From a virus, in IMG/VR virus record IMGVR_UViG_3300048834_000930, positions 1 through 56,648 of that record: 56,648 nucleotides of DNA, one strand, 5' to 3'. Within the stretch, counting starts at the first letter, position 1. Each line of letters opens with the position of its first letter. Positions 28,460 to 34,416 of the stretch are shown piece by piece. The notes beneath the pieces were generated by a model, which was not told the DNA's origin, did not search any database, and worked only from the letters and a program-made list of their open reading frames with translations. The translations under genes and the position numbers were made by a program.

Positions 28460-28928
28460 ACAATGGCTCGTGATTGAGCACCTGCACGAGTATCAGTGCA
28501 TGGCGCTCAAACACAACGAGCGCGACGAATTTCTTTTGGGAATCAAGGAAAGTGAAGTTGAAATGACCCACGAACTAACCTATGAGCAAGCCGAGTTCCT
28601 CCGCGCGGTTGCTAAGTTTCACATTGAGGCGACGTGTCTAGATGCGTCTGATTGGCGACCGCTGCTTGACGCTGGCCTAATCTGCGACCCAAGCGATTGG
28701 CCGGACTTGCACTTCGCTTTGACCGACGCCGGCCGCGAAGCCCTCATCGAGTGCAATCGCAAGTTCGTCACGGCCCCACGCGACGACATCGACTACGTGA
28801 TGAGATGCCTGAAAACCCGCATCGATATATTGGAGAAGCGATTAGTGGAACACCCTATTGAGCTGGCCGTTGTCGATGACATTCGCGATACGCTCAATGC
28901 TCTCATGAGAGTATTGGAGGCTAAATGA
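28431..28928 (+). CDS. Hypothetical protein, winged-helix-like, possibly two starts
   Basis: A 165-residue protein. Residues 45-115, from an internal ATG at 28563 (MTHELTYEQAEFLRAVAKFH), match the plan of the proteins at 32559 and 31838: 'ELTxxQaxxLRA...', a middle 'LL(D/V)xGL', then 'W..lh.aLTxAGrEAL'. This looks like a small winged helix. The N-terminal 44 residues are a separate strand-rich piece (VTYKGEQWLVIEHLHEYQCM). The C-terminus is a coiled coil. DNA binding is inferred only. Confidence 0.5.
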   Translation: MASKVTYKGEQWLVIEHLHEYQCMALKHNERDEFLLGIKESEVEMTHELTYEQAEFLRAVAKFHIEATCLDASDWRPLLDAGLICDPSDWPDLHFALTDAGREALIECNRKFVTAPRDDIDYVMRCLKTRIDILEKRLVEHPIELAVVDDIRDTLNALMRVLEAK

Positions 28929-29107: not shown

Positions 29108-29607
29108 AAATGGACAACAAACAAACCGTACTCGTCAGCGCCGTAGTCCACGCAAAGGCTGAATACAATTTTCACTTCGAGTTTGACGGCGACACGTCAG
29201 ATGAGGATGCGATGAAAGATGCGGCATGGTCTGCGCTCAACTCGGAGGCGATGATTGGACCTTTGGAGTGCTTGAGTCATGAGTTCGTAGATGAGGAGCA
29301 GTACAACACGGCGATGACTCTCGAAGTTGTCGACGGCTCGCCCGACGATTATCGGCCAGCGCCTAAAACACCATCCAAAGCCAAGCTCTGGCGGCGCGTG
29401 GCGAGGTTGGCTGGCGAGGTCATCATGAGAAATGATCCGGCCCTTTGCACGTACGGCCCGTCAATGAATGTGCTAAGTGGAGCCAGCGCTGTTAGAGAGT
29501 TGATTCGAGTTGTCCATGAATTTGAAGCGCAGGGGCTCGCCACGACCAGAAAAAAGCTTCTGAGCAGACTTGAAGCAGCACTCAAGGAATGGGAGGCAGC
29601 GCAATGA
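29104..29607 (+). CDS. Hypothetical protein
   Basis: 167 residues. The N-terminal half is strand-rich (TVLVSAVVHAKAEYNFHFEF), a linker is rich in Pro (SPDDYRPAPKTPSKAK), and the C-terminal half is helical (LWRRVARLAGEVIMRND; AVRELIRVVHEFEAQG). No family recognised. Coupled to both neighbours by overlaps. Confidence 0.5.
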   Translation: MKMDNKQTVLVSAVVHAKAEYNFHFEFDGDTSDEDAMKDAAWSALNSEAMIGPLECLSHEFVDEEQYNTAMTLEVVDGSPDDYRPAPKTPSKAKLWRRVARLAGEVIMRNDPALCTYGPSMNVLSGASAVRELIRVVHEFEAQGLATTRKKLLSRLEAALKEWEAAQ

Positions 29608-32287: not shown

Positions 32288-32550
32288 AACGCTTCCGCCT
32301 AGCCATCGTCAACCAAGGATTCACCGGTGTCGTTTGCACCGCGACGCCTTGCGGGTGCGACCCCGTTGAAGACTTCGCGCCGTGCTACGGCAGCGACTGG
32401 ACGTCGAACAATACGGCCGCGATCCTAGAGCACTGCCGCGGCGGGTACAAACACCAAGACCCGAGTGGTCGACATCCGCATCCGGTGTTTTCGACCGGAA
32501 AAGAACCGATCGAACAGGAAGAGTACGACAGGATTTCAAACCTGGCATAG
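32275..32550 (+). CDS. Hypothetical protein
   Basis: 91 residues from ATG 32275 (MERLERFRLAIVNQGFTGVV). Several Cys (VCTATPCGCDP, APCYGSDW, LEHCRGG) and His near the end (KHQDPSGRHPHPVF) could bind metal. No family recognised. Confidence 0.5.
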   Translation: MERLERFRLAIVNQGFTGVVCTATPCGCDPVEDFAPCYGSDWTSNNTAAILEHCRGGYKHQDPSGRHPHPVFSTGKEPIEQEEYDRISNLA

Positions 32551-32558
32551 GAGTTCAA

Positions 32559-32948
32559 ATGACAATCGAATTGACACACACGCAAGCAGCTATCCTTCGC
32601 GCTATCAACTCCGACGCTTGGGAAGCTCGTTATATCGGCAGCCCCCTAATCGGCAGCGACGATTTCTCGTGGGCCATCGAGAGGCTTGAGGTGGGGGCTG
32701 GCTACTTATGGACGCTTACCAATGCTGGTCAGGAAGCCCTCGCAGCCTACGACGCCAAATGGGTCCCCGTCGAGAAATGGCGCCTGGAAGAAGTGGCCAA
32801 CTACGTTTCCGAGTGCACGCCACTCACCAGCGTGAGCGATGAGGAGATTGTTGCCGACGTTGTCGCCCGTGCACATTGCGAGATCATGCTCACTGGAATC
32901 GGCATGTGGGGTGAACCGACGGATGGTTCGAAGGAGGTGAAATCATGA
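32559..32948 (+). CDS. Winged-helix-like hypothetical protein
   Basis: 129 residues from ATG 32559 (MTIELTHTQAAILRAINSDA). It shares with 28563-28928 the start 'MTxELTxxQAxxLRA' and the later 'WTLTNAGQEALAAYDAKWV'. A helical tail follows (VEKWRLEEVANYVSE). A small wHTH fold is plausible; the function is unknown. Confidence 0.5.
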   Translation: MTIELTHTQAAILRAINSDAWEARYIGSPLIGSDDFSWAIERLEVGAGYLWTLTNAGQEALAAYDAKWVPVEKWRLEEVANYVSECTPLTSVSDEEIVADVVARAHCEIMLTGIGMWGEPTDGSKEVKS

Positions 32949-33182
32949 GCCAAAGTCGTCGAATGTCCGCAAATGGAAACGTGCCTTTCAACGGCGATCG
33001 GATACGCCGTGGCGATGGCGACGCAGGCGGTCGTATTCCCGCTTTTCGGAATCCACGCCTCAGCTTCGGCACAATTTGAAATCGCCCTAATCTTCACCGT
33101 CGTGTCCATTCTGCGGGGGTATGCAGTGCGACGGTTCTTTGTCTTTTTGCATGGAAGGACAGGTCGGTGCTCCCCACCCTAA
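32945..33182 (+). pseudogene. Two-TM small phage protein (DUF7220-like) interrupted by a frameshift
   Basis: The frame from ATG 32945 reads MSQSRRMSA and then goes off; the +1 frame from 32973 reads METCLSTAIGYAVAMATQ, VVFPLFGIHAS, FEIALIFTVVSILRGYAVRRFF. Joined, they give the usual form of a small phage membrane family that begins MSQSRxMS and has two TM segments ending in 'vsivRsYalRRlF'. One extra A in the AAA at 32971-32973 breaks the frame. It may be a true mutation, a recoding site, or the +1 part may be translated alone from ATG 32973 (69 residues). Confidence 0.6.
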
Positions 33183-34035
33183 TCCTCGCCGCCATCCTGC
33201 AAGTCCAAGTGGAGTCAACGTGTGGATAGTCAGCAAAGCCCTTTGCGAGAGCTCGCCCTGTTCGCCGGCGCCGGCGGAAGCATCCTCGCCGGACGCAATC
33301 TTGGTTGGCGAACTGTCTGCGCAGTGGAGTTCGATCGGTACCGGCAAGCGGTCTTGGTCGCGCGACAAAACGACGGGAGCTTGGATCCATTCCCCATCTG
33401 GGATGACGTTCGAACTTTCGACGGAAGACCTTGGCACGGCCTTGTTGACATCATTTCGGGCGGGTTTCCGTGCCAAGATATCTCAGCAGCTGGCGGTGGC
33501 GCCGGCATCGATGGTGCTCGCTCCGGCCTTTGGTCGGAGATGGCACGCATTGTCGATGAAGTTCGACCTGGATTCGTCTTCGTGGAGAACTCACCAATGC
33601 TTGTTTCCCGAGGTCTTACCCGAGTCCTCAGTGATCTTGCCTCGCTCGGGTATGATGCAACGTGGGGAGTGTTGGGAGCTTCCGACGTTGGGGCGTGGCA
33701 CCGACGCGAGCGCATCTGGATCCTTGCTGCCAACGCTTACGCGCTGCGGGAACTACAATCGCAAGGGTCTGAGCGAACAAAGCGGGGACGGATTGCACAC
33801 TGTGCTGCGCACTTTTCCGACGCTCACGAAATCCGACGCGAGGCGAGGTGGCGGACGAAAACCTCGAGGGCGCAGCGAGGGGCAAAATCTATCCGAGGTC
33901 ATCGAGGGCAGTCCTGGGCCGCTGAACCCAACGTGGTGCGAATGGTTCATGGGCTGGCCAATGGGCTGGACCGAGTTGAGGCGCTGGGAGACGGGTGGGT
34001 GCCACAGTGTGGCGCGGAGGCATTTCTTCGTTTGA
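33121..34035 (+). CDS. Overlapping-frame ORF resembling a phage methyltransferase-associated protein
   Basis: A 304-codon frame lying across the C5 methyltransferase gene in another register. Besides being open, it carries blocks I know from phage proteins: PSGMTFELSTEDLG, KFDLDSSSWRTHQCLF, ILPRSGMMQRGECWELPT, SLLPTLTRCGNYNRKGLS with SGDGLHT, and PLNPTWCEWFMGWPMGWTEL near the end, the last being the 'LnPtwVEWLMGwPiGWT' signature. The N-terminal ~80 residues look like pure shadow. It could be a translated overprinted gene or the remains of a frame that was once part of the methyltransferase. Long open frames are common in this DNA, so the motif match is the evidence. Confidence 0.45.
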   Translation: MQCDGSLSFCMEGQVGAPHPNPRRHPASPSGVNVWIVSKALCESSPCSPAPAEASSPDAILVGELSAQWSSIGTGKRSWSRDKTTGAWIHSPSGMTFELSTEDLGTALLTSFRAGFRAKISQQLAVAPASMVLAPAFGRRWHALSMKFDLDSSSWRTHQCLFPEVLPESSVILPRSGMMQRGECWELPTLGRGTDASASGSLLPTLTRCGNYNRKGLSEQSGDGLHTVLRTFPTLTKSDARRGGGRKPRGRSEGQNLSEVIEGSPGPLNPTWCEWFMGWPMGWTELRRWETGGCHSVARRHFFV

Positions 34036-34055
34036 GTGAAAGGTTTGCTCAATGA
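33222..34055 (+). CDS. C5-cytosine DNA methyltransferase
   Basis: 277 residues from GTG 33222, with GTGGAG upstream. Motif I LALFAGAGGSILAGRN; acidic ligand in CAVEFDRYRQ; motif IV GGFPCQDISAAGGG with the catalytic Cys; GLWSEMARIVDEVRP; motif VI FVENSPMLV; motif VIII HRRERIWILA; and a motif X-like end VEALGDGWVPQCGAEAF (usually GNxxVPQ). The target-recognition region is short and oddly basic (RTKRGRIAHCAAHFSDAHEI), coinciding with the strongest part of the overlapping frame. No nuclease is adjacent, so it is an orphan MTase probably protecting phage DNA. Confidence 0.85.
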   Translation: MDSQQSPLRELALFAGAGGSILAGRNLGWRTVCAVEFDRYRQAVLVARQNDGSLDPFPIWDDVRTFDGRPWHGLVDIISGGFPCQDISAAGGGAGIDGARSGLWSEMARIVDEVRPGFVFVENSPMLVSRGLTRVLSDLASLGYDATWGVLGASDVGAWHRRERIWILAANAYALRELQSQGSERTKRGRIAHCAAHFSDAHEIRREARWRTKTSRAQRGAKSIRGHRGQSWAAEPNVVRMVHGLANGLDRVEALGDGWVPQCGAEAFLRLSERFAQ

Positions 34056-34104
34056 GCCGCTACGCACGCTCTTTATTGCTGGAACAGAATGAGATTAGTG
34101 AGAT

Positions 34105-34416
34105 ATGAAAACCGACGGCACCTTTGAGTTACTTGTGAATGAGGTCGATGCCTCGAAAACCCTTCTCGATCACACGAATGTGGGAAATAAAGATTCATAC
34201 ATCACTGCCGCATTGGCGCTGATCGATCACTTCAAGAGTGATGATTTTGCATTTGCGGTTTTTAGCGCGGGGTTTCGCGCTGGAGTTGCCTCAGTCCTTT
34301 TCGATGAGAATAAAGTAATTCGAAAGCACATCTATGAAGCGGCAAAAGAGCTCAACGACAGGAGAGTCAAGGGAAGTGAACGCACTGATAGCGGAAAGAA
34401 CGAGGCCACAACATGA
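34105..34416 (+). CDS. Hypothetical protein
   Basis: 103 residues, MKTDGTFELLVNEVDASKTL, with GAGTGAGAT-type weak initiation upstream. Helical with one mildly hydrophobic stretch (FAFAVFSAGFRAGVASVLF). No family. Its stop overlaps the next start. Confidence 0.5.
   Translation: MKTDGTFELLVNEVDASKTLLDHTNVGNKDSYITAALALIDHFKSDDFAFAVFSAGFRAGVASVLFDENKVIRKHIYEAAKELNDRRVKGSERTDSGKNEATT

Follow-up and report, generated by a model that had tools for sequence, protein, structure and literature searches.

The methyltransferase locus and its two reading frames

The window, i.e., the whole stretch of DNA that was analysed, is a virus record of 56,648 bases. On its plus strand, two long reading frames lie over the same DNA, as the initial annotation had stated: one of 277 amino acids at 33222..34055, and one in the +1 frame, listed as 33121..34035 (304 amino acids), which opens upstream of 33121. 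Their products are referred to here as alpha and beta, respectively.

Alpha starts with GTG and has the character of the catalytic subunit of a C5-cytosine DNA methyltransferase, with motifs I–VIII and X. It is matched by PF00145 in a Pfam search (residues 11–186, E 3e-32) and by phrog_363 in a PHROGs search (E 4e-64). Motif I (LFAGAGG, 33258..33278) consists of invariant alignment columns; motif IV (GFPCQDIS, 33462..33485) contains the catalytic Pro-Cys, with P83, C84 and Q85 invariant; motif VI (ENS, 33585..33593) has invariant E122 and N123; and motif VIII (HRRERIWILA, 33699..33728), read from the sequence, is conserved among relatives. Motif X (LGDGWVPQ, 33984..34007) is deviant, in that GDGWVP stands in place of the GNGQVP of relatives, but it is still in alpha's frame. 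The closest relative, L002, which is 82% identical to the window in nucleotides, has a TAG at the motif X tryptophan (L002 3798). Because of the deviant motif X and this TAG, the window's copy of the enzyme may be impaired, and likewise that of the L002 lineage. Short stretches of the window (32549–32771, 28556–28607 and 29377–29420) are similar to the L002 region just upstream of the methyltransferase, which suggests that sequence in the neighbourhood of these genes has been repeated or shuffled.

In the AlphaFold2 (AF2) model of alpha, residues 11–170 and 261–277 are confident and the stretch between them is poor, with 193–207 and 212–249 scoring below 50; structure alignment of the model with M.HhaI gave a Z of 23.4 across 193 residues of a 327-residue chain. 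Since the PF00145 match ends at residue 186, and the middle of the protein is unconserved and modelled with low confidence, alpha as modelled is without motif IX and without a confidently folded recognition domain. The conventional single-chain layout, i.e., motifs I–X and the recognition domain in one frame, was not found in the window, as it is the +1 frame that holds motif IX together with the conserved part of the recognition region.

Beta (33220..34035, 271 amino acids) is the probable recognition-domain/motif IX subunit. It probably starts at GTG 33220, 2 nt ahead of alpha's GTG at 33222, since the N-terminus that follows is conserved in relatives; thus, of the extent given in the initial annotation, the end at 34035 stands and the start at 33121 probably does not. 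The N-terminal peptide MWIVSKAL (33220..33243) is conserved in the window's group even though it lies over alpha's leader: beta begins MWIVSKALCE in the window, and MTWLISKAL, MSWLISRAL and similar in relatives. An alternative start is the internal ATG 33403, as conservation across the whole family begins there. The sequence GGAG at 33211..33214, with spacings of 5 nt to GTG 33220 and 7 nt to GTG 33222, may be a shared Shine-Dalgarno sequence; a scan of 32800–34400 found neither promoter nor terminator.

The usual start in relatives is NTG-N-ATG-AG(C/T)T, in which the ATG of beta is 4 nt downstream of the start of alpha. This type of pattern occurs at 132 of 249 deduplicated loci, and a ATGCGTGAGYTG pattern at 6 further ones. 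In most relatives, the beta sequence MSWLFSQALVEEYS overlies ELALFAGAGGG of alpha. In the window's group, alpha has a leader, and the equivalent beta N-terminus (MTWLISKALMDSY, MSWLISRALMEAY) overlies that leader instead. That one and the same beta N-terminus is found over alpha in two different registers is strong evidence for beta itself.

The resemblance of the second frame to a phage protein family, noted in the initial annotation, was borne out in the PHROGs search: beta is matched by phrog_1008, which is labelled DNA methyltransferase (E 1e-11), and by phrog_26627 (E 5e-11). There were no matches in Pfam or NCBIfam. AF2 modelling of beta alone gave a poor result (mean pLDDT 56); a poor fold might be expected if beta folds on its partner, but proves nothing.

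Constraint on the second frame

The openness of the +1 frame was assessed against a null in which the methyltransferase amino acids were kept and synonymous codons were shuffled. Across 117 distinct relatives, 265 stops were counted in the +1 frame where 668 were expected, and stops in the +2 frame are not depleted (1746 vs 1561 expected). The longest +1 open run is significant (P < 0.01) in 85 of the 117, so that the second frame is open in relatives. In 163 representatives there is a single +1 stop over alpha codons 91–150 and none over 151–231, and about 200 open +1 codons are found even in relatives with 40% GC and about 30% methyltransferase identity. Single-chain methyltransferases, used as controls, have no deficit of +1 stops (8 vs 9.2, 11 vs 10.5 and 6 vs 4.9).

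Conservation of the encoded sequence points in the same direction. Identity in the alternative frame is 0.42 against a null of 0.26 (300 random pairs), and between motifs VIII and X the alternative frame is more conserved (0.46, null 0.20) than alpha (0.33). For the window against 162 relatives, alternative-frame conservation has a mean z of 5.4; it is at the null level over alpha codons 1–60, except for the N-terminal peptide, and positive from codon 61. Identity in the +2 frame also exceeds its null (0.35 vs 0.24), by a smaller margin than in +1, as is expected where constraint on the +1 frame freezes nucleotides.

The region in which beta is more conserved than alpha is 33738..33914, where beta has CGNYNRKG and the blocks following it, and alpha has a basic, Gln/Arg-rich stretch that appears to be a passenger and over which AF2 confidence is low. 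The initial annotation had drawn attention to this stretch as the place where the second frame is most motif-like, and the information content agrees: over alpha codons ~173–231, successive blocks have 1.50, 1.41 and 0.99 bits in alpha and 1.83, 1.87 and 1.05 bits in beta. Between the window and L002, codons 175–232 of alpha differ at 24, 11 and 12 first, second and third positions, respectively, leaving alpha 48% and beta 71% identical. This codon-position pattern is that of the second frame. In a +1 overlap, each third-position change in alpha hits the second position of a beta codon; in line with this, 61 of 829 fourfold sites of alpha differ (7%) in six close pairs. In neighbouring genes the figure is 353 of 1288 (27%), taken from pairs that partly coincide with those six, so that the comparison is not matched pair by pair throughout; the pair L143/L248 shows no difference.

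If the methyltransferase frame alone were coding, the second frame would be a shadow of conserved methyltransferase DNA and GC-rich codons, and phrog_1008 an artefact of gene calling. The window taken by itself would allow this, as its longest +1 run of 270 codons is not significant under synonymous shuffling (P = 0.11), and the leak of some constraint into the +2 frame is also in its favour. However, the synonymous-shuffle nulls are exceeded for both stops and identity, the alternative frame is more conserved than the methyltransferase frame between VIII and X, fourfold sites are suppressed, the single-chain controls have no stop deficit, and the N-terminus of beta occurs in two registers. 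A shadow was rejected on the shuffle nulls, the stop counts, the codon-position patterns and the single-chain controls, and is left with hardly any probability. Thus, the proposal in the initial annotation that the overprinting is real is supported by the shuffle nulls, the stop deficit and the fourfold suppression, and the substitution patterns indicate selection in both frames rather than in the methyltransferase frame only.

Beta and the known C5-methyltransferases

A profile was built from two single-chain methyltransferases with motifs I–X in one open reading frame, prophiGD91-2 gp27 and Daenerys gp70. It matches actinophage betas (E 1e-24 to 1e-39), the beta of L201 (5e-9) and many alternative-frame proteins, and no shuffled decoy was among the matches listed for it. 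The window's own beta is matched at E 1e-3, so that the homology rests mainly on relatives. Alignment to the single-chain enzymes places the motif IX-like block LNPTWCEWFMGWPMGWTEL (33922..33978) on PRLAPAFSEWMMGWPAGWVTDV, i.e., on the same part of those proteins. Because of this alignment and these profile matches, the C-terminus of beta is, by sequence comparison, a homologue of that part of single-chain C5-methyltransferases which holds the recognition domain and motif IX, and beta is most likely the enzyme's other subunit; phrog_1008 is then probably the other half of the enzyme and not an independent methyltransferase. Searches of PDB sequences with the L100 beta and with the beta-family profile gave nothing credible.

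The position of motif X varies among the relatives. It is in alpha's frame at 229 of 249 loci. In L100, L113, L114, L120, L201 and L215, alpha stops after motif VIII and the beta frame continues through motifs IX and X (KAIGNGQVP); motifs IX and X are both on the second polypeptide at 9 loci other than that of the window, at one of them (L057) by a frame-swapping indel. The annotated actinophage pairs Zaka gp91/90, Andrew gp43/44 and RemusLoopin gp34/35 likewise have the recognition part, IX and X on beta. In L057, L065 and L068, a single indel swaps both frames, joining the N-terminal part of beta to the C-terminal part of alpha. A frame-swapping indel also breaks the methylase of Mycobacterium phage Llama (gp74/gp75, L301), which is one gene in Spikelee.

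These layouts bear on the question of whether a programmed frameshift could fuse motifs I–VIII of alpha to the C-terminus of beta, yielding one full-length chain and not two subunits. At loci such as L201 and L100, alpha is cut short just past motif VIII, and the recognition domain, IX and X follow in the +1 frame, so a single shift there would rebuild the classical enzyme. Yet at the 229 loci with motif X in alpha's frame a single shift would lose that motif, and beta is open and conserved back to the start of alpha, with a conserved start codon and N-terminus of its own. Fusion by frameshifting is therefore very unlikely, and two separate chains are preferred.

A precedent for such a motif split, which the initial annotation had missed, is M.EcoHK31I, the small polypeptide of which is reportedly encoded in a different frame within the large open reading frame. 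According to the account of Lee, Kam and Shaw (1995) cited in PMC3404938, its large subunit has motifs I–VIII and X, and its small polypeptide has motif IX. As described there, the split is the same as that in the window, where alpha has I–VIII and X without IX and beta has IX (the score of the window's own beta being weak); the second polypeptide is out of frame within the first in the window and in relatives. Unlike the small polypeptide of M.EcoHK31I, the window's beta approaches alpha in length and has its start next to that of alpha, and whereas the recognition domain of M.EcoHK31I is predicted to be on the large subunit, conservation here suggests that it is on beta. A search for an M.EcoHK31I-like locus in plasmids and Escherichia coli genomes found only prophage-like or unlabelled methyltransferases.

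M.AquI is a natural two-polypeptide C5-methyltransferase comprising a catalytic part and a recognition/IX part, with IX and X on beta, as outlined in PMC3404938. The six loci with IX and X on beta (L100, L113, L114, L120, L201 and L215) and the actinophage pairs resemble it; the window differs in having motif X in alpha's frame and frames that overlap almost completely, and its arrangement is not that of M.AquI. In the actinophage pairs and in phage Diva (gp50), a catalytic half is likewise followed by an out-of-frame recognition/IX half and the genes overlap, but the overlap of the pairs is partial and the Diva beta begins inside alpha, whereas that of the window's family is almost complete. 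In mycobacteriophage ShiLan, an out-of-frame HNH insertion lies in a methylase (PMC11855218). There too a phage methylase gene contains the code for a second protein in another frame, but ShiLan has a homing insertion, whereas the window's second frame covers the methylase core. An HNH homing insertion in the window was rejected, as searches of Pfam, NCBIfam and PHROGs yielded no HNH match and the frame overlies the conserved core.

Distribution of the overlap and the proposed enzyme

The initial annotation had raised the question of whether the family of the second frame always overlaps a dcm-like gene. It does so with few exceptions: 290 of 294 beta-profile loci overlap a methyltransferase in +1, and the remaining four show this arrangement in a split-domain form, the relatives having been collected with a beta or an alpha query, which limits "always" to what such queries detect. 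The beta profile is present in 31 of 392 and 22 of 398 whole genomes of two bacterial families, where the overlap with a methyltransferase in +1 is seen at 55 of 61 loci, some of which represent the same place more than once. The few non-overlapping cases are split-domain variants or weak or degraded pieces; no convincing standalone beta without a methyltransferase was found among the 294 loci and 790 whole genomes. Judged from the sequences, the full overlap recurs across hundreds of phages and prophages.

Two further groups were noted. A divergent C5-methyltransferase subfamily in two bacterial families (L312–L334, L350–L352 and L354) has an HFFAGIG-type motif I, preceded in some members by a motif II-like piece, and a +1 open reading frame inside the methyltransferase, ending in a [21 protein letters not shown]-like sequence. 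Methyltransferases of another type, with QRRRRIF-like motif VIII (L140 3212–3712 and L355–L357), have long +1 open reading frames of different sequence type; the +1 stop count of L140 is not below expectation.

Could beta instead be a protein with a function of its own, e.g. in regulation or anti-restriction, whose gene overlaps that of a methyltransferase without contributing to the enzyme? Outside the overlap, no homologue of the N-terminal half of beta turned up, and AF2 gives beta alone no confident fold, both of which would suit such a protein. Set against these are the C-terminal homology to the recognition/IX part of C5-methyltransferases, the location of motif X on beta at some loci, the lack of motif IX and of a folded recognition region in alpha, and the methyltransferase that accompanies beta at nearly every locus. 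An independent beta is thus unlikely.

It is likely that the locus encodes a two-polypeptide C5-cytosine DNA methyltransferase, with subunits translated from frames that coincide over nearly their whole extent; the initial annotation had not recognised that a single enzyme is probably divided between the two frames. Alpha would supply the AdoMet and catalytic motifs I–VIII and X, and beta the target-recognition/motif IX part, with its N-terminal half overprinted on the catalytic core of alpha. A common ribosome binding site and adjacent start codons (GTGTG in the window, NTG-N-ATG-AG in most relatives) would permit initiation in either frame, and both chains, made from the same RNA, would assemble into a heterodimer that methylates DNA. 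Translation of beta, the heterodimer and DNA methylation are what we infer for this locus; that the enzyme protects the phage or takes part in regulation may be supposed by analogy with phage methyltransferases in general.

The likely history would be a frameshift fission of a single-chain enzyme, after which each frame was extended over the other. In Mycobacterium phage Empress (gp68/gp69, L303), a frameshift seems recently to have split the single-chain methylase that is still intact in Daenerys (gp70, L305); the split and overlapping forms may have begun from a split of this type. The overprinting is real and old, its two products being most likely subunits of a single enzyme, and the locus is a variant, widespread in phages, of a kind already known. 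On balance, it seems that near-full-length mutual overprinting has arisen in hundreds of phages and prophages, with the specificity half moved to the second frame, the recognition region of alpha left as a passenger, and one ribosome binding site serving starts 2–4 nt apart.

Annotation usually records one protein of the two, so that the overlap is publicly visible only in part. In OQ471969, MW722521 and E. coli PT62, a single cytosine methyltransferase is annotated at the locus (alpha and not beta in the two former records); in PP083311, beta is annotated and alpha is not; in Paenibacillus phages both frames are annotated; and Diva gp50 carries the remark "g49 internal gene". Thus, phrog_1008 is an alternative-frame family, of the type that the initial annotation had suggested might be present in databases. 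Searches of largely open-access literature on overlapping genes and methyltransferases found no report of the overlap, the nearest being the ShiLan insertion.

Long conserved same-strand overlaps of cooperating proteins are rare, and this one is common in phages. The series from single-chain enzyme to partial and then full overlap makes the origin of overprinting directly testable. Furthermore, many annotated phage methyltransferases may be half-enzymes, which would fail if cloned alone.
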